NCBI GenBank assembly: GCA_025451535.1
Contig: JANWKE010000136.1
Coordinates: 1-51,608, forward strand
Direction of reading: 5' to 3'
Source: Verrucomicrobiia bacterium
GTDB lineage: Bacteria > Verrucomicrobiota > Verrucomicrobiia > Limisphaerales > UBA11358
DNA: 51,608 nucleotides
Part shown: piece after piece, positions 3,855 to 46,359 of the stretch
Position numbering within the stretch: position 1 is the stretch's first letter
Layout of the letters: every line of letters starts with the position of its first letter
Translations under genes and position numbers: made by a program
The notes under the pieces: generated by a model
Seen by the model: only the letters and a program-made list of their open reading frames with translations
Database searches by the model: none
Told to the model about the DNA's origin: nothing

Positions 3855-5286
3855 GCCCGAACGCTGTTCGCACACTGTCACCCAGGGCCGCGACCATGCG
3901 CCTGACCTGGGTGCGAGTGGCGCAATACGGTGGCATCAGGACAATCACGCTGCCGATAGGACGCGTGAGCACGCCGCGTCGAGCCATGGCCTCACATACC
4001 CGGATGCCGGCGCGTTCGCGCAATCCAAACGGCTCACGCGTTCGCCAGTTTTTTACCAGCTCGATGCCGGCCATCAGACCAACTTGCCGGATGTCGCCGA
4101 CGTTCGGCAAGGTCCAGAGCGTTTGCAGCTCTTCCTGCAGGTTTCTTTCCAACCCCTGTCGCGCGCGGATGGATTCCGGGCTTTGGAGGATTTCGAGGCT
4201 CGCCAGCGCCGCGGAGGCCCCCAGTTGGTTGGCGGTATAACTGTGCCCATGAAAAAAGGTTTTGAACTCGTCGTATCGGCCGAGGAAAGCGTTGAAAATG
4301 TCCTGTGTTGTCAGCGTGGCGGCCATCGGCAGGTAACCGCCGGTCAGGCCCTTGGCCAGGCATAAAAAGTCCGGCTGCAGACCTTCCTGATGTGAGGCAA
4401 ATACAGGTTCGGAGTCCGGAGTCCGGAGTCCGGAGTTGGGGCCGCCCGTGCGCCCAAAGCCGGTCATCACCTCGTCGGCAATCAGCAATGTGCCATGGCC
4501 GCGCGCAATGTCCGTGGCGCGTTTCAACCAGCCCGGCGGTTGCGGGATCATGCCCGCCGCGCCTTGAATCAACGGCTCAAATACAAAAGCCGCGTAGGAA
4601 TTTCCTTTCTTCCTTTGCGCGGAAAAGTTCTGTTCGACCTTGCCGATGCATTCCCAGTGGCACTTGCGATATTCGCGCGCGTCGGCGCGTTCAGGCTTCG
4701 CCCGGTTGAACGGACACCGATAACAGTACGGCGACATGACCTTGTCCGTTTTGAACAACAGCCCGGAGTAACTTCGGTGAAACAAATCGATGTGGCCGAG
4801 TGCGACCGCACCCACGGTATCGCCGTGGTATGCGCCTTCCAGGGAAAGGAATGCTGGCTGTTTGTTCCGGCCGGCGCGCCGGGCGAATTCGTAGGCGAGT
4901 TTGAGGGCGACCTCAAGGGCCGTGGAGCCGTCGTCGGAGAAGAAAACCTTGTTCAATCGCGGAACGCGGAGTGCGGAGTGCGGATTAGCCGTCTTGACCA
5001 GTTTTGCCGCGAGTAACGAGGCCGGTTCATTGGCCAATCCGAGCGCGGAGCTGTGCGCAATTTTTGCAAGCTGCCGCCGGATGGCCGCGTTGATTTGCGG
5101 ATGATTGTGCCCGTGCAAATTCGTCCAGATCGAGGCGTTGGCGTCGAGATATTCCCGGCCGTGAATATCGCGCAAGATCGCGCCCCTGCCTTCCGCAATC
5201 ACAATCGGCTCGCGCTGCAACCAGTCGCGCATCTGCGTGAAAGGGTGCCAGACGAATTGGCGGTCCAGTTGGGCGAGTTTGTTCAT
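3841..5286 (-). CDS. bioA: Adenosylmethionine-8-amino-7-oxononanoate aminotransferase
   Basis: A fold-type I PLP aminotransferase that converts KAPA to DAPA in biotin synthesis, using S-adenosylmethionine as amino donor. Visible motifs are VWHPFTQMRDW at the N-terminus, VFFSDDGSTALEVALK, SLEGAYHGDTVGAVALG, LLIADEVMTGFGRTG, CLAKGLTGGYLPMAATLTT (with the PLP Lys) and the FFHGHSYTANQLG segment. I chose the ATG at 5286; an in-frame TTG at 5295 is only 3 codons upstream. Two in-frame heptamer insertions add peptide: one near 4959-4986 (before LNKVFFSDDG) and one at 4408-4437 (after GFGRTGG). The last codons come from a palindromic repeat. It is the second gene of a bioF-bioA operon. Confidence 0.95.
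   Translation of the reverse strand: MNKLAQLDRQFVWHPFTQMRDWLQREPIVIAEGRGAILRDIHGREYLDANASIWTNLHGHNHPQINAAIRRQLAKIAHSSALGLANEPASLLAAKLVKTANPHSALRVPRLNKVFFSDDGSTALEVALKLAYEFARRAGRNKQPAFLSLEGAYHGDTVGAVALGHIDLFHRSYSGLLFKTDKVMSPYCYRCPFNRAKPERADAREYRKCHWECIGKVEQNFSAQRKKGNSYAAFVFEPLIQGAAGMIPQPPGWLKRATDIARGHGTLLIADEVMTGFGRTGGPNSGLRTPDSEPVFASHQEGLQPDFLCLAKGLTGGYLPMAATLTTQDIFNAFLGRYDEFKTFFHGHSYTANQLGASAALASLEILQSPESIRARQGLERNLQEELQTLWTLPNVGDIRQVGLMAGIELVKNWRTREPFGLRERAGIRVCEAMARRGVLTRPIGSVIVLMPPYCATRTQVRRMVAALGDSVRTAFGQDTR
4408..4437. repeat. In-frame heptamer array in bioA (CGGAGTC type)
   Basis: Four 7-bp units, three identical CGGAGTC and one CGGAGTT, sit inside bioA. They encode roughly SGLRTPDSE on the bioA strand, between GFGRTG and the conserved FASHQEGLQPD, where homologues have only a few residues. 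Confidence 0.8.
4959..4986. repeat. Second in-frame heptamer array in bioA
   Basis: Units GAACGCG, GAGTGCG, GAGTGCG and the start of GATTAGC form a 7-bp periodic stretch. It encodes NPHSALRVPR-like residues just before the conserved LNKVFFSDDG of BioA. Confidence 0.65.
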
Positions 5287-5318: not shown

Positions 5319-6474
5319 TTTTGAGCGCGCGGATCAGTTCGGAAACGTCTTCCGATGAATGCGAGGCTGTGAGCGTCACCCGCAGGCGCGCTTTCCCGCG
5401 CGCGACGGTCGGATAACGGATCGCCGGAACAAAAATGTTTTGCTCGCGCAATTTTGCGGCGGCCTGCACGGCCTGGTTTTCGTCACCAATGATCATGGGA
5501 ATAATGGCGCCGGGGATTTGTGATTTACGATTTGCGATTTGCGATTGAAATTCGCCGACGCGTGACCACAGCAATTCCTGCCGCACCCTGCCTTCGGCAG
5601 ATTGAACAAGCAAAATCGCCGCTTGGGCGGCGGCGGCGGCGGCGGGGACGGGTGCGGTGGAAAAAATAAAACTCCGGGCGCGGTTGACGAGAAAATCAAT
5701 CAGCGTGCGCGAGCCGCTGATGTAACCGCCACTCGCGCCGAGCGCCTTGCCGAGCGTACCCATTTGAATCTCGATCTTGTCGTTCAACCCAAGCTCTTCC
5801 GCGAGCCCGCGGCGATGCTTTCCGTAGAGCCCGGTCGCGTGAGCCTCGTCCACCATGAGCCACGCGCCGTATTTCTCTTTGAGCGCGGCGATTTCGCGCA
5901 ACGGCGCGGCGTCGCCATCCATCGAGAAAATGCTTTCTGTCGCGACAAGTATCTGCCCGCCGTTTTGGGCGGTATCGGCCCATTTTAATTTGTCTTCGAG
6001 GTCATCGGGATCATTATGGGCAAAGACGCGGATTTTTGCGCCGCTGAGCCGGGCGGCATCCACCATGCAGGCGTGAACCAGTTTATCCAGAATGATGATG
6101 TCATTCTTGCCGAGCAGGGCGCAGATGGTTCCCATGGCCGTGGCGTAGCCGGATGAAAAACTCAACGCCGCTTCGGTGCCCTTGAACCGGGCGAGGGTTT
6201 CTTCCAGTTCCTGATGCGGTGCCAGTGAACCGCAAATCAGGCGCGAGGCGCCGGAGCCGGCGCCAAATTTGTCCACCGCCCGGATGGCGGCTTCCCTGGG
6301 CAATGGGTCATTGGCGAGCCCGAGATAATCATTCGATGAAAAATTCAGCAGGGTTTGCCGGCCGACCTGGATGCGCGTGCCTTGCGGTGAGTCTACCGGG
6401 CGGAGTTCGCGAAGCAAACCCTGGCCGCGGATGGCATCGAGGCGGTGTCGCAATTCTGCATCGAAAGAAAGCAC
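5299..6474 (-). CDS. bioF: 8-amino-7-oxononanoate synthase
   Basis: A 391-residue member of the alpha-oxoamine synthase family. It condenses pimeloyl-thioester with alanine to give KAPA, the step before BioA. Motifs are NFSSNDYLGLANDP (residues 41-54), GSGASRLICGSLAPHQELEE, ALSFSSGYATAMGTI, DKLVHACMVDAARLSGA, MVDEAHATGLYG, and GTLGKALGASGGYISGS with the PLP lysine. The start is a GTG at 6474. Its upstream region (6481-6510) is a CGTAAAT heptamer array that leaves no clear Shine-Dalgarno. A second array (5517-5547) encodes the SQIANRKSQIP stretch. bioA follows 12 bp after the stop; no other bio gene is in the window. Confidence 0.95.
   Translation of the reverse strand: MLSFDAELRHRLDAIRGQGLLRELRPVDSPQGTRIQVGRQTLLNFSSNDYLGLANDPLPREAAIRAVDKFGAGSGASRLICGSLAPHQELEETLARFKGTEAALSFSSGYATAMGTICALLGKNDIIILDKLVHACMVDAARLSGAKIRVFAHNDPDDLEDKLKWADTAQNGGQILVATESIFSMDGDAAPLREIAALKEKYGAWLMVDEAHATGLYGKHRRGLAEELGLNDKIEIQMGTLGKALGASGGYISGSRTLIDFLVNRARSFIFSTAPVPAAAAAAQAAILLVQSAEGRVRQELLWSRVGEFQSQIANRKSQIPGAIIPMIIGDENQAVQAAAKLREQNIFVPAIRYPTVARGKARLRVTLTASHSSEDVSELIRALKTFGLGL
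5517..5547. repeat. In-frame heptamer array in bioF (GATTTGC type)
   Basis: Units of the form GATTTGT, GATTTAC, GATTTGC, GATTTGC, GATTGAA. On the bioF strand they encode the SQIANRKSQ stretch, in a surface loop upstream of the conserved IIPMIIGDE strand. Confidence 0.75.
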
Positions 6475-6480
6475 GCCGGA

Positions 6481-6510
6481 AATTTACGATTTACGATTTA
6501 CGGTTTACGA
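6481..6510. repeat. Heptamer array upstream of bioF (CGTAAAT type)
   Basis: Four TTTACGA/TTTACGG units on the plus strand, reading CGTAAAT on the bioF strand, end 6 bp before the bioF GTG. The orientation relative to the gene is the same as before the EVE gene and mnmE. Confidence 0.8.
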
Positions 6511-6569
6511 GCAAAAAGCGGGCAAGGTGGCGATTGGCAGCGGAACCTCCAATCACCATCAGCCCCAAA

Positions 6570-11995: not shown

Positions 11996-12029
11996 AAACT
12001 GGAAAGCAACTCGCGTTTATCATTGTCAT
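11925..12029 (-). CDS. Possible 34-codon leader ORF overlapping the AraC-type gene start
   Basis: GGGAGG at 12036-12041 is spaced 6 nt from an ATG at 12029, the best ribosome-binding site in this stretch. The frame (MTMINASCFPVYEPRNKKRS onward) runs 34 codons to a TGA at 11925-11927. It overlaps the first 71 bp of the AraC-type gene in another frame. The peptide has four Cys/Tyr-rich positions and no recognisable family. It may be a leader ORF controlling the regulator, or the relic of an original start that suffered a frameshift. Expression is unproven. Confidence 0.35.
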   Translation of the reverse strand: MTMINASCFPVYEPRNKKRSEDCPKYCFYFTAPQ

Positions 12030-12075
12030 GAACTGCCTCCCAATGCAAGGCCGCCAGTAGAGCATTGTGCCGGAA

Positions 12076-12645
12076 TTATTTCTTTTGCAACGCCGCCTTG
12101 GTGTCGGCTTGGAGGGCGTCCAGTTGTGGACGCAACTCTTCCTTGGTCGCCTTGTCCATGCGGTCGATGAACAGAATTCCGTTAAGGTGATCCACCTCGT
12201 GTTGGACCACGCGCGCGAGCAGCCCGCCGCCGCGAAATTCCACCGGCTTGCCTTTCTCGTTGAGCGCCTTCACGTCAACGGATTCGGGTCGCGCAATCTC
12301 TCCGAAAATTTCCGGAAAACTCAGGCAGCCTTCCCCGCCGGAAACAAATTCGCCGAGCGGCGTGATTTCGGGGTTGATTAAAACCAGCGGCATGAAGGCA
12401 TTCAGGTCAGCAGGTTTGCCGTCGAGTTCGAGCCATGACGGGCGGTCCTTCACGTCACGCACGTCAATGACCGTCAGCTGCAATGCCCGGCCGATTTGCT
12501 GGGCGGCCAGGCCGACGCCTTTGTTTGCGCGCATGGTTTCCAGCATGTCCTCGGCCAGCTTTTTAATTTCCCGGGTGATGCCCTCAATGCGCGCGCCCTT
12601 TTGCCGGAGCACGGGATGGCCGTATTTGACGATGTCTAAAATCAT
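12076..12645 (-). CDS. def: Peptide deformylase
   Basis: A 189-residue metallo-hydrolase that removes the formyl group from new N-termini. The three family motifs are intact: GVGLAAQQIG (motif 1, about residues 43-52), EGCLSFP (motif 2, with the metal-binding Cys, about 104-110) and QHEVDHLNG (motif 3, with HExxH, about 149-157). The C-terminus is a charged Lys/Gln tail. The start ATG at 12643-12645 overlaps the stop of the four-helix-bundle gene (ATGA), so the two are coupled. The usual partner fmt is not next to it. The bases upstream of the ATG are a CGTCACC heptamer array that also encodes the C-terminus of the upstream gene. Confidence 0.96.
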   Translation of the reverse strand: MILDIVKYGHPVLRQKGARIEGITREIKKLAEDMLETMRANKGVGLAAQQIGRALQLTVIDVRDVKDRPSWLELDGKPADLNAFMPLVLINPEITPLGEFVSGGEGCLSFPEIFGEIARPESVDVKALNEKGKPVEFRGGGLLARVVQHEVDHLNGILFIDRMDKATKEELRPQLDALQADTKAALQKK

Positions 12646-13115
12646 GGCGAGTGACGGGTGACAGGTGACGGGTGACGAGAAGTGACGTTCGGCGCGTTCC
12701 CGGCACTCTTTTGTCTCCCTTCGATGGTAGAGATGGTTTTAGTCAACCCGCCGATGATATGGTCAAGCGTGGCAATCCGGCTGCTGACGATTTCTCCGTC
12801 GAGCAGATGGCGGCAGCGTTTAAACCGGCCTTGACTTTCCCGCGCCTCGCCTCGCGCGATTTTCAAGTGCTGCGGCAATTCTTTACCAAAACCGCGGCCA
12901 AAGCCTTCTTCAATATTGGCACAAATGGAATCAAGACTGCGCACCTGTTGCCGGGCCAATTCGCGTCCGCGAAAATCTTTGTCCATAATTTCGGCGTCGC
13001 GCCAAAAGTCTTCGAAGAGTTGGCTCGCCAGTTGGTAGATGCCAAAAGACTCGAGTCGGTCGACTCCTGAGCTTGACCTGGTTGAATTCGGCTCCATAAA
13101 CGGTTGTCTGGTCAT
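12642..13115 (-). CDS. Four-helix-bundle protein, S23 intervening-sequence (IVP/Avd-like) family
   Basis: A 157-residue protein of the TIGR02436-type family. It has the typical run LESFGIYQLASQLFEDFWR, then LARQQVRSLDSICANIEEGFGRG, EARESQGRFKRCRHL and an amphipathic C-terminal helix LDHIIGGLTKTISTIEGR. Relatives are encoded inside split 23S rRNA genes of spirochaetes and accompany diversity-generating retroelements (Avd); most stand-alone copies have no known role. The C-terminal SRHPSPVTRHSP is encoded by a heptamer array, and a long array of the same type in opposite orientation lies upstream (13141-13230), so the gene is bracketed by inverted arrays. It sits between pfkB and def. Confidence 0.85.
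   Translation of the reverse strand: MTRQPFMEPNSTRSSSGVDRLESFGIYQLASQLFEDFWRDAEIMDKDFRGRELARQQVRSLDSICANIEEGFGRGFGKELPQHLKIARGEARESQGRFKRCRHLLDGEIVSSRIATLDHIIGGLTKTISTIEGRQKSAGNAPNVTSRHPSPVTRHSP
12648..12687. repeat. Heptamer array (GTGACGG type) at the def start
   Basis: Units GTGACGG, GTGACAG, GTGACGG, GTGACGA and a final AAGTGACG on the plus strand. On the def strand it reads CGTCACC and ends within 3 bp of the def ATG. It also codes the last residues of the four-helix-bundle protein. Confidence 0.85.
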
Positions 13116-13140
13116 TCAGTTGACATCGCTATTCAATCAC

Positions 13141-13230
13141 GCCACAAGTCACTCATCACTTCTAACTCCACTGTCACCTGTCTTTTCCTTTTCGTTTCCC
13201 GCCACTCGCCACTCGTCACGCGCCACTCTC
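13141..13230. repeat. Heptamer arrays (CGCCACT/GTCACTC type) between the four-helix gene and pfkB
   Basis: Two sub-arrays, 13141-13181 and 13200-13230, contain units such as CGCCACT, CGCCACT, CGTCACG, CGCCACT. Their orientation is opposite to the array at 12648-12687. The pfkB stop codon and its last residues (ESGA) are formed by this array. Confidence 0.8.
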
Positions 13231-14346
13231 ATCAGGCCAGTCGCGGAGCATTTTCGCCAGGTCCGGCATGGCGGGACTTTGCGCGGTGCGGACGTAATGG
13301 CCGCTGGTGGTGACGCCGGTCAGCACGCATTGCGCATTGTCCAAACCCAGCAGTTTGCCGAGACAAAAACCGGAATTAAAATGGTCACCCGCGCCGGTGG
13401 TGATCGCGGGCCTGGGGGTGAACGGCCCCTGGACCAGGGAAACGACACCATTACTCGCCGCCAGCGCATAGCTCACGGGATGAACAACCAGCGTGTTCAC
13501 CGGGACCCGCCGGCTGATTTCCAAGGCCAGCGCGGAAAGCGCATCCGAGGATTTGCCGGCTGTCTGCAATCCCAACACTTCGCCGATTTCGTGCGCCTCT
13601 TTTTCGTTCAGACCCAGGATGACATCAAAGTATTTCTCAAATTCCACAATGGTCTTGAGTGCCTGCCGGATGTCGTCCGGTTTGCGTTTTTCCGGGTCGG
13701 CCAGGTCGAAAAACATCACGCGCCGTTTGCCGTTCAGGACAGGACAAATTTCCCGGAGCACGGCCTCCCAAATCTCCCCCATGTGGGTCAACATCGTCCA
13801 GTTCACGAAGCCCACCAGATCGGCGCTGCCGAATCGGGCGACAAATTGGTCGCGGCCATAACGCGATTGAATATTCGGCCAGTTCACGTCATTGAGCGAC
13901 TGAATCTTGCCAATCATGATTTTGCCGTCGTCGAATTCCAGCGCGTCCGTGTGGCCGGGTTCGGCAATGGAATGCACCTCGGCGCGTTTGGCGAAATCGG
14001 CGAAGACCGGGTGCAAGTTCGGCCAGCCCAGATTGCCGAGGTAGGTGACCTTCAGGCCAAAGCTCGCCAGGGCGTTGGCCATGATGGGTCCGTTACCGCC
14101 AAGCTTGGTGACGCGGTTGACGATTTCGATGTTGGTGCTCCTGCCCGCAGCGGCCGCCAGGCGCTCGGCCAGTTTGGAAATCGTCGCCAGGCGTTGAAAT
14201 GAATCCGGGCCGTCGCGTTTGTCCACGACATGAAGGATTTCATCCACGAAGCCGTCCAAACCCACGAAAGCCGTCATGCGCCCGGCTGCGGCGGCGCCCG
14301 CGAGAAGTCGTTGGGCGCACTGTTCGCGCAGTTCCGGTGTGTTCAT
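13216..14346 (-). CDS. PfkB-family carbohydrate kinase
   Basis: A 376-residue sugar kinase of the ribokinase/PfkB fold. FVGLDGFVDEILHVVD at the N-terminus and KLGGNGPIMANALASFGLKVTYLGNLG (about 80-107) are the substrate-binding GG motif region. The catalytic signature TTGAGDHFNSGFCLGKLLGLD (GAGD, with the catalytic Asp) is near residue 325. A FFDLADPEKRK segment and a LGLNEKEAHEIGEVLG helix fit the lid. The sugar substrate cannot be told. The ATG at 14346 is preferred over the in-frame TTG at 14385, which would nearly abut parB. It is downstream of parB on the same strand with 42 bp between, and its 3' end is in a heptamer array. Confidence 0.85.
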   Translation of the reverse strand: MNTPELREQCAQRLLAGAAAAGRMTAFVGLDGFVDEILHVVDKRDGPDSFQRLATISKLAERLAAAAGRSTNIEIVNRVTKLGGNGPIMANALASFGLKVTYLGNLGWPNLHPVFADFAKRAEVHSIAEPGHTDALEFDDGKIMIGKIQSLNDVNWPNIQSRYGRDQFVARFGSADLVGFVNWTMLTHMGEIWEAVLREICPVLNGKRRVMFFDLADPEKRKPDDIRQALKTIVEFEKYFDVILGLNEKEAHEIGEVLGLQTAGKSSDALSALALEISRRVPVNTLVVHPVSYALAASNGVVSLVQGPFTPRPAITTGAGDHFNSGFCLGKLLGLDNAQCVLTGVTTSGHYVRTAQSPAMPDLAKMLRDWPDESGA

Positions 14347-14388
14347 TCGTCTTGAAATTTTGCGAAAACCGCACGCGGCGCGCAATTT

Positions 14389-15863: not shown

Positions 15864-15903
15864 TGGACGACTTTGGACTTTAGACTTCAGACTTTGGACT
15901 TTA
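15864..15903 (+). repeat. Heptamer array (GGACTTT type) before the DUF309 gene
   Basis: Five to six units (GGACGAC, TTTGGAC, TTTAGAC, TTCAGAC, TTTGGAC) end 10 bp before the GTG at 15914. The CGGACTTTAGACTTTGG-like core is shared with the array before bioA, in the same orientation relative to the gene. Confidence 0.75.
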
Positions 15904-25850: not shown

Positions 25851-25926
25851 AATTTATGATTTACGATTGATGATTTATGATTGTTGTTCAGCAGTGAGGA
25901 TGCGCTGCCGTTTTCAAATCATAAAT
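25851..25926. repeat. Inverted heptamer arrays between frr and the FtsB-like gene
   Basis: After the frr stop, units ATTTATG, ATTTACG, ATTGATG, ATTTATG, ATTGTTG (25853-25884) face an inverted partner AATCATAAAT (25917-25926) just before the stop of the convergent gene. The two arms can pair, so the block may act as a two-way terminator. Confidence 0.75.
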
Positions 25927-26887: not shown

Positions 26888-27145
26888 GTGGAAACGCCAT
26901 TGACAAAGAATTTGCTGAACGCGCTGGTGCAATTGGATGCTGCCGTTAAAGCCCTGCCGTCGGCCAATCCCAAACCCGATTTGCTGCCGTTCTTTGCGCG
27001 CATCGATGAATTAGCGAAACAATTGCCACCAGATACGGACCCGACCCTGTTGCATTATCTACACAAGAAAAGTTACGAGAAAGCCCGGTGCTATTTGCAG
27101 GGCCGCGACGCGGAAAATCAGGCTGGAAATTGCCGGCACATTTAA
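26888..27145 (+). CDS. Small helical hypothetical protein (85 aa)
   Basis: An 85-residue protein whose frame extends upstream through the palindromic element at 26712-26780. The GTG at 26888 is taken as start because the upstream part is encoded by that repeat. The sequence is helical, with LLNALVQLDAAVKALPSANP, LLPFFARIDELAKQLPPDTDP and LLHYLHKKSYEKARCYLQGRD, ending in CRHI. There is no signal peptide or catalytic motif. The regular helices suggest a small soluble bundle. No family is recognised. A heptamer array follows 1 bp after the stop. Confidence 0.65.
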   Translation: METPLTKNLLNALVQLDAAVKALPSANPKPDLLPFFARIDELAKQLPPDTDPTLLHYLHKKSYEKARCYLQGRDAENQAGNCRHI

Positions 27146-27146
27146 A

Positions 27147-27226
27147 TTTATGATTTACGATTGACGATTGATGATTGTTAACGGGCAGATGGTCGTGCGG
27201 CGTACAAACCATGAATCATAAATCGA
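27147..27226. repeat. Inverted heptamer arrays downstream of the 85-aa gene
   Basis: ATTTATG, ATTTACG, ATTGACG, ATTGATG, ATTGTTA (27147-27181) and an opposite CATGAATCATAAATCG (27209-27224) form an imperfect inverted pair in a 222-bp gap before mnmE. Confidence 0.7.
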
Positions 27227-27342: not shown

Positions 27343-27370
27343 TCAAATTATAGATCGAAAATCGTAAATG
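27343..27370 (+). repeat. Heptamer-like stretch at the mnmE start (CGTAAAT type)
   Basis: ATAGATC, GAAAATC, GTAAATG. The ATG of mnmE (27368) is formed by the last unit, exactly as at the EVE-domain gene (AATCGTAAATG in both). Confidence 0.6.
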
Positions 27371-28744
27371 TTTTCTGACACGATTGCTGCCATTGCCACG
27401 CCGCTGGGCGAAGGCGGATTGGCTGTCATCCGGATTTCCGGCTCACAGGCGCTCGCAGTCGCCGAGAAGAGTTTTTTCCCACTCGGACGGAATTCGCGGA
27501 AGCCTTCCGCCGCAGCGTCGCATACTATTCAATACGGCAAAATTGTTCAGGGCGGGAAAACCATCGATGAAGTTCTGCTGGCCGTCCTGCGTGCCCCGCG
27601 CACTTACACGTGCGAGGACACAGTGGAAATCACCTGCCACGGGGGCATCCTGGCGGCCAAACTCGTCCTGGACCCGATTCTGGCCAACGGGGCGCGCCCC
27701 GCCGAGCCCGGCGAAATAACCCCGCGCGCCCTTCTCAAAGGCCGCATTGACCACACACAGGCGGAGGCCCGCGCCGATTTGATTAATTCGCGCACGGAAC
27801 TGGCGCTGGCGGCCGCCAACGAACCGCTCGCCGGCAAGTTGTCGCAGCGCATCAATGAACTGCGTGATGAGCTGATGCAGACGCTGGCGCACGTCGAAGC
27901 GCACATTGATTTCCCCGACGAAGATATCGCGCCCGACACCAGGGAGCAGTTACTGAAGCGTTTGTCGGGCGGCGTGAAGTTCATGGAGGAACTGCTGCAA
28001 ACGGCGAACGAGGGACAAATCCTGCGCCGTGGCATCCGCGCCGCGATTGTGGGTCGGCCCAACGTGGGCAAATCGAGCCTGCTCAATCAACTTCTTGGAC
28101 GTGACCGTGCCATCGTATCGCCGATCCCGGGAACAACGCGCGACACGATTGAAGAGACAGCGGACATCCGCGGCCTGCCGGTCGTGTTCATCGATACGGC
28201 GGGTCTGCGGGAAGCGCGCGATGAAATTGAACAGGAAGGCATTCGCCGCAGCCACGAATCGCTTGCCCGGGCGGAATTCATTTTGCACGTGCTCGATGCC
28301 AGCGAACCGTTGGCGGACGCGGATGAAAAATTCCTGGCCGGGTTTGCGGGCAAGAAACGGATTCTGGTGCGGAATAAAATGGATTTGCCGGTGAAACTTG
28401 CCGGGTTCCGAATTCCGAGTTCCCAATTCCGGGTTGTGGATGTTAGTTGTTTAAGCGGGCAGGGGATTGAAGGGTTGAAGGACGCCATCAAGGAACTGAT
28501 CTGGTCCGGCGAAATCAAGGCCGAGATGTTGCAGGTGATGATTAACTCGCGACATCAGGACGCGCTGAACCGCGCGCGCGCGGCGACGCAAAGGACGATT
28601 GAAGCGTTGCGCACCAACGTGACGTTGGAACTGGGGGCTTTGGACTTGCGCATCGCCGTTAATGCCATCGGCGAAATCGTCGGCAAGACGGCGACGGAAG
28701 ACTTGCTCGATTCCATTTTCAGCCAGTTTTGCATTGGCAAGTAA
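27368..28744 (+). CDS. mnmE: tRNA modification GTPase MnmE
   Basis: A 458-residue GTPase acting with MnmG (GidA) to place carboxymethylaminomethyl groups on U34 of tRNAs. The N-terminal folate-binding domain has DTIAAIATPLGEGGLAVIRISG and YTCEDTVEITCHGG. The G domain has GRPNVGKSSLLNQLLG (P loop, near residue 228), PGTTRDTIEE, DTAGLREA and NKMDLP. The C-terminal FCIGK box, with Cys, ends the protein. Residues near 346-358 (GFRIPSSQFR) are encoded by a heptamer array between NKMDLP and DVSCLSGQGIE and are absent in most MnmE. The family length is otherwise normal. Confidence 0.97.
   Translation: MFSDTIAAIATPLGEGGLAVIRISGSQALAVAEKSFFPLGRNSRKPSAAASHTIQYGKIVQGGKTIDEVLLAVLRAPRTYTCEDTVEITCHGGILAAKLVLDPILANGARPAEPGEITPRALLKGRIDHTQAEARADLINSRTELALAAANEPLAGKLSQRINELRDELMQTLAHVEAHIDFPDEDIAPDTREQLLKRLSGGVKFMEELLQTANEGQILRRGIRAAIVGRPNVGKSSLLNQLLGRDRAIVSPIPGTTRDTIEETADIRGLPVVFIDTAGLREARDEIEQEGIRRSHESLARAEFILHVLDASEPLADADEKFLAGFAGKKRILVRNKMDLPVKLAGFRIPSSQFRVVDVSCLSGQGIEGLKDAIKELIWSGEIKAEMLQVMINSRHQDALNRARAATQRTIEALRTNVTLELGALDLRIAVNAIGEIVGKTATEDLLDSIFSQFCIGK
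28405..28436 (+). repeat. In-frame heptamer array in mnmE
   Basis: Units TTCCGAA, TTCCGAG, TTCCCAA, TTCCGGG (one base off at the third). They encode GFRIPSSQFR between the G4 motif (NKMD) and the G5 region of MnmE. Confidence 0.75.

Positions 28745-42438: not shown

Positions 42439-46359
<3,921 letters not shown>

Follow-up and report, generated by a model that had tools for sequence, protein, structure and literature searches.

Most S23 four-helix-bundle genes examined lie between inverted arrays of a repeat of their own, usually 7 nt long

Introduction

Genes of the S23 "four helix bundle" family occur in many copies in many genomes, and no function is given for them in the literature found. 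One such gene lies between def and a pfkB-type kinase gene in a contig of a Verrucomicrobiia bacterium (JANWKE010000136.1, assembly GCA_025451535.1; its 51,608 nucleotides are called the window here), with short tandem heptamer repeats on either side. A preliminary description, made from the sequence alone, took gene and repeats for a free cassette. The locus raises the question of whether the repeats belong to the gene, how general such an arrangement is, and what it might do.

The cassette between the kinase and def

The following parts and neighbours were recognised:

12642..13115, minus strand: S23/four-helix-bundle gene, 157 aa (PF05635 and TIGR02436 above cut-off)
12645..12680, no strand: downstream arm, GTGACGG-type heptamer array (TRF and lag-7 scan)
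13197..13230, no strand: upstream arm, CGCCACT/CGTCAC array, reverse complement of the downstream arm (TRF and lag-7 scan)
about 13141..13182, no strand: degenerate inner heptamer stretch (GTCACTC-type) adjoining the upstream arm (read from the sequence; inverted matches)
12076..12645, minus strand: def (peptide deformylase), downstream neighbour of the S23 gene (PF01327)
13216..14385, minus strand: pfkB-type/ketohexokinase-like kinase, upstream neighbour (PF25270 and PF00294)

The encoded protein scores 44.9 bits against PF05635 (cut-off 33.8), the only Pfam family in the cassette ORF, and 53 bits against TIGR02436 (cut-off 24), which bears out the four-helix identity first proposed. Its AlphaFold2 model has a mean pLDDT of 83.4; the top PDB matches in Foldseek are 2gsc_E (E 4.4e-3, TM 0.81 by target) and 2rld_B, none being at E<=0.001, and Avd is a further structural neighbour (4dwl, 8ub7-8ube). 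The described position between def and a pfkB-type kinase agrees with the profile matches on both sides, the best model for the kinase being ketohexokinase (PF25270), with PfkB (PF00294) weaker.

The two arms (TRF rows 12651-12677, period 7, and 13200-13228) have opposite orientation and bracket the gene as had been claimed; the inner stretch at 13141-13182 was not called as an array by the lag-7 scan. The overlaps with coding sequence were also confirmed in the codon positions: the last residues of the S23 protein are encoded by the downstream (left) array, its stop codon (12642-12644) shares an ATGA with the start codon of def (12643-12645), and the kinase stop codon (13216-13218) lies within the upstream (right) arm. 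With an S23 ORF between terminal inverted repeats, the locus is indeed built like a 23S rRNA intervening sequence standing free.

To score inverted flanks, the 350 nt on the left were aligned locally with the reverse complement of the 350 nt on the right and the best score was taken; the threshold of 30 and the flank length are the analyst's choices. The window cassette scores 31, and 30 or more is found at 1.07% of 1500 random spots in its own genome. A chance origin of the arms was rejected on these random spots (about 1%) and on the lag-7 arrays, of which there are 11 in the window and 0 in ten order-1 Markov samples of it. The predicted RNA fold of the cassette is closed by the arms, with six pairs and one mismatch per heptad in the MFE structure (z -2.73; 1 of 100 shuffles equally good). 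No Rfam match up to E 0.1 was found at 12000-14000.

S23 genes of the same genome

The genome of the window (G000; 4.40 Mb, 188 contigs, the window being contig C136) has 16 TIGR02436 matches, corresponding to 13 genes and one weak match without arms; frameshifts break two of the genes into a pair of matches apiece, and one gene contains an in-frame stop. All 13 genes reach an inverted-flank score of 30, each with its own unit. By eye the units are GTTGAAA, GTTGATA, CAGTCCA, AGAATGC, GTTAAAT, ATTTACG, AACATCG, TGCGGAG, a 21-mer, a hexamer, GTGACGG, TAGTCAG and ATTTATG; same-strand unit copies are present too at locus L003. The copies are diverged and give no sign of a recent burst (13-61% identity to the first sequence among ten). 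Five pairs of arrays 430-511 nt apart were found in 331.6 kb outside the window, in contigs picked for having hits and mostly S23-bearing, and all five enclose an S23 gene.

Generality across bacteria

Bracketing is common well beyond this genome. A score of at least 30 is reached by 127 of 160 distinct S23 genes from many phyla: 13/13 in the own genome, 20/28 in the order, 59/77 in the set genome_contigs and 35/42 on viral contigs. Thirteen of 21 further loci of the genus, counted apart from the 160, reach it as well. The order loci are the 30 best-scoring matches of those listed, and the genome_contigs loci the best 80 of at least 565 confirmed, from a pattern scan with ten canonical proteins; one genome per species was sampled, many of them MAGs. 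Identical genes were removed at six sites (171 to 165), and five loci with a flank below 100 nt (L074, L076, L109, L148, L230), L016 (24.2 bits, score 21) and L060 (flank cut) were left out. L018 was counted as a miss, its bounds having taken in the arms; with domain bounds it scores 40. Among the 33 genes below threshold, 20 low-scorers were inspected and several show short or degenerate arms. One query of the INPHARED phages gave no S23 match.

Controls stay far lower. The threshold is reached at 0.93% of 1500 random spots in the order, at 1 of 26 def genes, and by 1.67% of 5760 mismatched flank pairs, which stand in for random spots in other phyla; with flanks compared in direct instead of inverted orientation, 13 of 77 loci reach it. 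As 11 of 16 isolate-derived loci score at least 30, the bracketing is not a product of MAG assembly. Lag-7 arrays as such are fewer in S23-poor genomes: in a count over ten genomes, 180 kb of those with 0-1 S23 matches gave 3, and 220 kb of relatives having 6-14 gave 18. The bracketed architecture is a rule of the S23 family, each cassette having its own unit. No paper linking S23 or GxxExxY genes (see below) to such arrays was found in the open-licence literature searched.

Anatomy of the arms

The best period of S23 arms is 7 in 109/127 and 8 in 12/127, and in 117 arms identity averages 0.69 at lag 7 and 0.68 at lag 14, against 0.23-0.31 at the other lags from 4 to 13. Copy number is narrow too: 90 period-7 pairs have medians of 4.57 and 4.5, and runs of 4.5 units (about 31 nt) make up 34/90 upstream and 38/90 downstream. 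Read in the direction of the gene, 74/90 upstream arms contain more G than C.

Two stronger regularities held only in part. An AG in every unit, universal to the eye, proved to be an enrichment: AG recurs at a fixed phase in 55 of 103 arms, where column permutation gives a mean of 31.9 and, in 200 rounds, a maximum of 44. Exact in-register mirroring of unit variants between arms was expected and found to be partial: 52 of 63 pairs lie above the permuted value, 25 of 63 at p<=0.05, and the alignment-based comparison is biased because the alignment chooses the best register.

A second family with another period

GxxExxY genes (TIGR04256; PF13366 of the PD-(D/E)XK nuclease superfamily in three genes tested) are bracketed too, with scores of at least 30 at 48 of 57 loci, namely 23 of 28 usable in the order and 25 of 29 in a phylum-wide draw (L267-L296 and L301-L329, the 30 best matches fetched per draw; L288 and L290 left out). 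Their arms typically consist of three cores 8-10 nt apart, e.g., CACAGAT or CGCTAAT. The best lag is 9, 8 or 10 in 38 of 42 GxxExxY arms (<60 nt), against 7 or 14 in 105 of 117 S23 arms, and the GxxExxY periodicity is less pronounced, identity averaging 0.33-0.36 at lags 8-10 and 0.22-0.27 at the others. Neighbour strands are (+,+) at 27 and (-,-) at 2 of 45 clear sites. On viral contigs, GxxExxY genes were found at only 4 loci. Of all the observations, the contrast of periods between the two families hints most strongly that arm and protein belong together.

Filled and empty sites

A def match was present in 38 genomes, and 30 def loci were fetched. Relatives do not uniformly hold an array-free gene here, the finding that would have spoken against a cassette: the S23 gene is present at 2 of the 30 loci, those of G000 and its closest relative G024, both with GTGACGG-type arrays, and the two proteins are 79% identical. 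At the other 28 loci, the kinase adjoins def in 5 and parB in 23, with gaps of at most 171 nt. Several of these gaps (L021, L023, L028-L030, L038 and L041) contain gene-less inverted repeats or arrays. In four relatives (L021, L023, L028 and L029) the position upstream of def that is taken by the S23 cassette in this genome has gene-less inverted CACAAAGA-like units resembling GxxExxY arms.

Further filled and unfilled sites were found elsewhere. On a plasmid of Nostoc edaphicum, nrdA and nrdB are separated by an antisense cassette with unit AGTAGGG, and at the orthologous site on a Calothrix plasmid the two genes are 40 nt apart, without cassette. Nine of the 10 S23 matches of G024 were examined: four are at loci common with G000 and three correspond to no G000 S23 locus. 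For the G024 loci L249 and L250, the corresponding G000 region was seen without cassette; the counterpart of the L250 cassette is a gene-less GTTAAAT hairpin, and GTTAAAT is the unit of a G000 cassette 1.2 kb from it. Where G000 has this latter S23 cassette between genes (L005, 1295-1975), G024 has a GxxExxY gene with arms of its own (L250, 2797-3245), and a stretch kept in G000 beside its S23 cassette resembles the right arm of the G024 GxxExxY gene. Filled and unfilled sites are too diverged to fix the junction base in a check for target-site duplication, and neither transposition nor target duplication was observed in the loci compared.

Units and proteins co-vary. Unit similarity is 4.97 of 7 letters for protein pairs at least 60% identical (62 pairs) and 3.3-3.8 below 60%; similar-flank pairs were left out, and many of the close pairs come from related viral contigs, for which blastn may fail to show that the locus itself is common to both. 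In records labelled Bacteroidota and Betaproteobacteria, S23 proteins 68% identical have units alike in 6 of 7 letters (both are MAGs, where contamination is possible). Horizontal transfer of gene and arms is likely from such comparisons, and gene and arms behave as one cassette. Their mobility is supported only indirectly, by filled and unfilled orthologous sites, the likely transfer and the gene-less relatives.

In five S23 ortholog pairs dN/dS is 0.06, 0.08, 0.05, 0.10 and 0.23 (0.06 for the window gene with G024; 0.10 for def), values that are rough because dS exceeds 1 in four of the five; they indicate that S23 proteins are under purifying selection. Orthologous cassettes have been kept in place across 70-85% DNA identity. 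The strands of the two neighbours relative to the gene, taken from longest ORFs at 122 clear sites, are (+,+) at 77, (+,-) at 20, (-,+) at 14 and (-,-) at 11, a sense bias to be read with the caveat that ordinary operon genes are mostly co-directional too.

Two comparisons may be added. The IMG/VR contigs L239 and L241 are identical where aligned, except for a tandem duplication of most of the S23 cassette with its junction inside the arms. Two plasmids of Calothrix brevissima NIES-22 (L190, L191) carry the same block, about 3.6 kb long, in which there is an integrase gene and also an S23 gene; GGTGTAG-type arrays in inverted orientation can be read on either side of the S23 gene.

In-frame cassettes inside host genes

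At 6 of 150 sites the cassette lies inside a long same-strand ORF, and the frame relative to the S23 gene is always identical. The hosts are N6_N4_Mtase methylases (L078, L110), Eco57I-type methylases matching BREX PglX (L088, L204), and DNA polymerase III alpha-type proteins with the cassette between the NTPase and finger domains (L113, L199). Gemmobacter and Planktothrix plasmid homologs align in two pieces around the cassettes of L110, L078, L204 and L088; L110 is without arms by score. The +2 frame of S23 genes is open in 14 of 153 (3.8 expected), an excess that is not specific, since one antisense frame is in excess too (12, with 4.3 expected).

Gene-less hairpins and solo arrays

Solo lag-7 arrays are common in this genome (the window has 11, and stretches outside it 8.2 per 100 kb). 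Those without an S23 gene in the window are:

4405-4441, 4956-4988, 5515-5548, 6479-6511, 15868-15902: lag-7 arrays
25852-25882: lag-7 array, with a short partner at 25916-25926
27145-27181: lag-7 array, with a partner at 27346-27369
28401-28430, 43405-43436: lag-7 arrays

The units of these nine resemble those of S23 cassettes elsewhere in the genome. Compared with the genome's own cassette units (two of the 13, the 21-mer and the hexamer, left out), 24 lag-7 arrays outside S23 cassettes match 5.88 of 7 letters, against 5.09 +- 0.12 for units of other genomes, 5.19 +- 0.06 for units of the order and 5.11 +- 0.18 for letter-shuffled units; 0 of 1000 in each comparison set fit as well. Hairpins with loops of 9-37 nt account for three more array pairs in G000 and for another four across 400 kb from relatives. 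When gene-less hairpins were sought through base pairing only, 22 were obtained, but no more than 4 of them show period 7, and 2 show period 8-10.

Discussion

The reading that we hold to be probable, though well short of certain, is that of an array-ended gene cassette whose arms are putative multivalent sites for the S23 protein encoded between them. The stretch 12642-13230 is one copy, made of the gene and two inverted arms of about 4.5 private 7-nt units each, and would have settled between kinase and def in an ancestor shared by this species and G024. The arms would be multivalent binding sites, one pentameric S23 ring engaging one arm with one subunit per unit, and bound, complementary arms would define the cassette ends, as DNA or as an RNA stem. 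Host machinery could then copy or move gene and arms together, and the hairpins and solo arrays that lack a gene would represent relics or non-autonomous derivatives. The entries 2gsc and 2rld hold five chains each, and a homopentameric torus is stated for S23 in PMC4990558. Five contacts of 3-4 nt at 7-nt steps span 4 x 7 + 3.5 = 31.5 nt, the commonest arm length; the five-chain crystals and this fit are what led to the suggestion of one ring per arm. Slippage or pairing by itself fixes neither period, copy number nor the difference between families. Against this reading stand the lack of a known transposase in the cassette, the 33 of 160 genes below threshold, the divergence of the copies within the genome, an AG that is enriched but not universal, the partial mirroring of unit variants, and the sequence diversity of the arms, which a specific binder must accommodate.

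The main rival, because the arms close a stem in the predicted RNA, is an RNA-level role as a free-standing intervening sequence: the arms would pair in the mRNA, the stem of about 30 bp would be cut (RNase III) or looped out, operons would tolerate the cassette, and the tandem repetition would be secondary. The fold statistics of the window arms (z -2.73, 1 of 100 shuffles as good) speak for it, as do the Coxiella intervening sequence, with a 28-bp terminal stem and an S23 ORF (PMC4990558), and the 77 sites with both neighbours co-directional against 11 with both opposed, of 122 clear. Pairing, however, could do without tandem repetition and without a set period, and it leaves the different GxxExxY period unexplained; antisense insertions occur, as on the Nostoc plasmid, co-direction is usual for ordinary operon genes, and in-frame cassettes keep the host ORF open, as if translated through. 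We regard this role as unlikely, if still worth serious attention. Rather less credit is given to a resident, non-mobile regulatory unit, in which the arms would be operators by which S23 controls its own operon, a ring wrapping the 5' array. TRAP is a ring protein that wraps RNA with regularly spaced short motifs, and the proposed S23 ring reading spaced motifs would resemble it, although TRAP is an unrelated protein and serves as an analogy only. Purifying selection (dN/dS 0.05-0.23 in five ortholog pairs), cassettes in place over 70-85% DNA identity and the sense bias of neighbours fit such a unit; sites filled in one relative and unfilled in the next, neighbours that change from cassette to cassette, dispersed gene-less hairpins and solo arrays, and 68% identical S23 proteins with alike units in Bacteroidota- and Betaproteobacteria-labelled records do not.

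That the cassette is a retro-mobile element, for which the host supplies the reverse transcriptase and S23 acts like Avd as its partner, appears very improbable. The structural nearness of Avd to the model (4dwl, 8ub7-8ube), the resemblance of PF05635 to Avd given in PMC10053308, and one RVT_1 gene in G000 are in its favour; 24 of 40 genomes searched are without RVT_1 (MAGs may be incomplete), some of these having 8-14 S23 matches (G001, G005, G026 and G024 10-14), so that a resident RVT_1 is not required. That the repeats are ordinary slippage-born simple sequence, incidentally placed beside S23, can hardly be believed: solo lag-7 arrays are frequent in G000 (11 in the window; 8.2 per 100 kb), but inverted arms stand at 13/13 own and 127/160 of all S23 genes against about 1% of random spots, all five array pairs 430-511 nt apart enclose an S23 gene (in a sample of mostly S23-bearing contigs), and S23-poor genomes have 3 arrays in 180 kb against 18 in 220 kb of S23-rich relatives.

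The preferred reading of arms as sites for the encoded protein may be carried further, to a generalisation that we consider plausible but somewhat less likely than not. S23 rings with 7 nt x about 5, and GxxExxY with three cores 8-10 nt apart, would belong to a whole class of elements reading their own ends, period and copy number mirroring protein geometry; many unexplained heptamer and nonamer repeats and hairpins in bacterial genomes would then derive from such cassettes, as their end pieces, as relics or as offspring without the gene, the rRNA intervening sequence being the special case in which 23S was the landing place. The finding gives S23 genes a genomic anatomy and a testable job, and provides separately described heptamer repeats with a likely owner. 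The array geometry predicts nucleic-acid binding, and since a second family, of nucleases, differs in period, a single comparative assay could put the rule to the test.

Relation to known elements

REPIN/RAYT and MITE-type elements combine a gene-bearing form with dispersed gene-less hairpins, and the cassette may be like them in having both forms with resembling ends; gene-less hairpins sharing ends with a gene-bearing copy amount here to one clear case (GTTAAAT) and the statistical match of solo arrays. Unlike REPIN/RAYT, the cassette has no Y1-type transposase (PF05635 alone is found in its ORF), and its ends are tandem arrays of a unit that differs from copy to copy within one genome. It differs from insertion sequences and DNA transposons in the same respect, no transposase lying between the terminal inverted repeats. 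We know of no element with ends formed by private tandem arrays of a protein-family-specific period.

The closest likeness is to the 23S rRNA intervening sequence, for which an S23 ORF, inverted repeats at the ends that can pair into a stem of about 30 bp, a sporadic distribution and suspected mobility are described (PMC4990558). The window cassette differs in lying between the protein genes def and kinase instead of within 23S rRNA, and in having arms that are tandem arrays of a private 7-nt unit. In a stricter reading, it may be a variant of the intervening sequence.

Heptamer repeats resembling the cassette arms are already in print. Tandem 7-nt units are described in Xanthomonas and Nostoc, with 70-75 inverted pairs in Xanthomonas (PMC4692102), a short tandem repeat TAACTGA in Beggiatoaceae (PMC4679880), and a P6b stem built from 7-nt motifs in Nostoc trnL (PMC4476775), all as far as the accessible parts of these papers go. 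Those parts draw no link to S23, and the terms S23 and four helix have 0 occurrences in the accessible text of PMC4692102 and PMC4679880; the link between S23 and the arrays would be the new part.

The S23 model is also related in its four-helix fold to Avd of the diversity-generating retroelements, in line with PMC10053308. Unlike such a retroelement, the window locus had no reverse transcriptase, template or variable repeat identified. A context of this kind was considered for the arm-less viral family L203 and dropped, its two largest flanking ORFs having no Pfam match. The sole RVT_1 gene of G000 lies at C101:3828-4484 (L244), far from any S23 cassette found, and the 576-aa ORF there looks like a group II intron-type reverse transcriptase.
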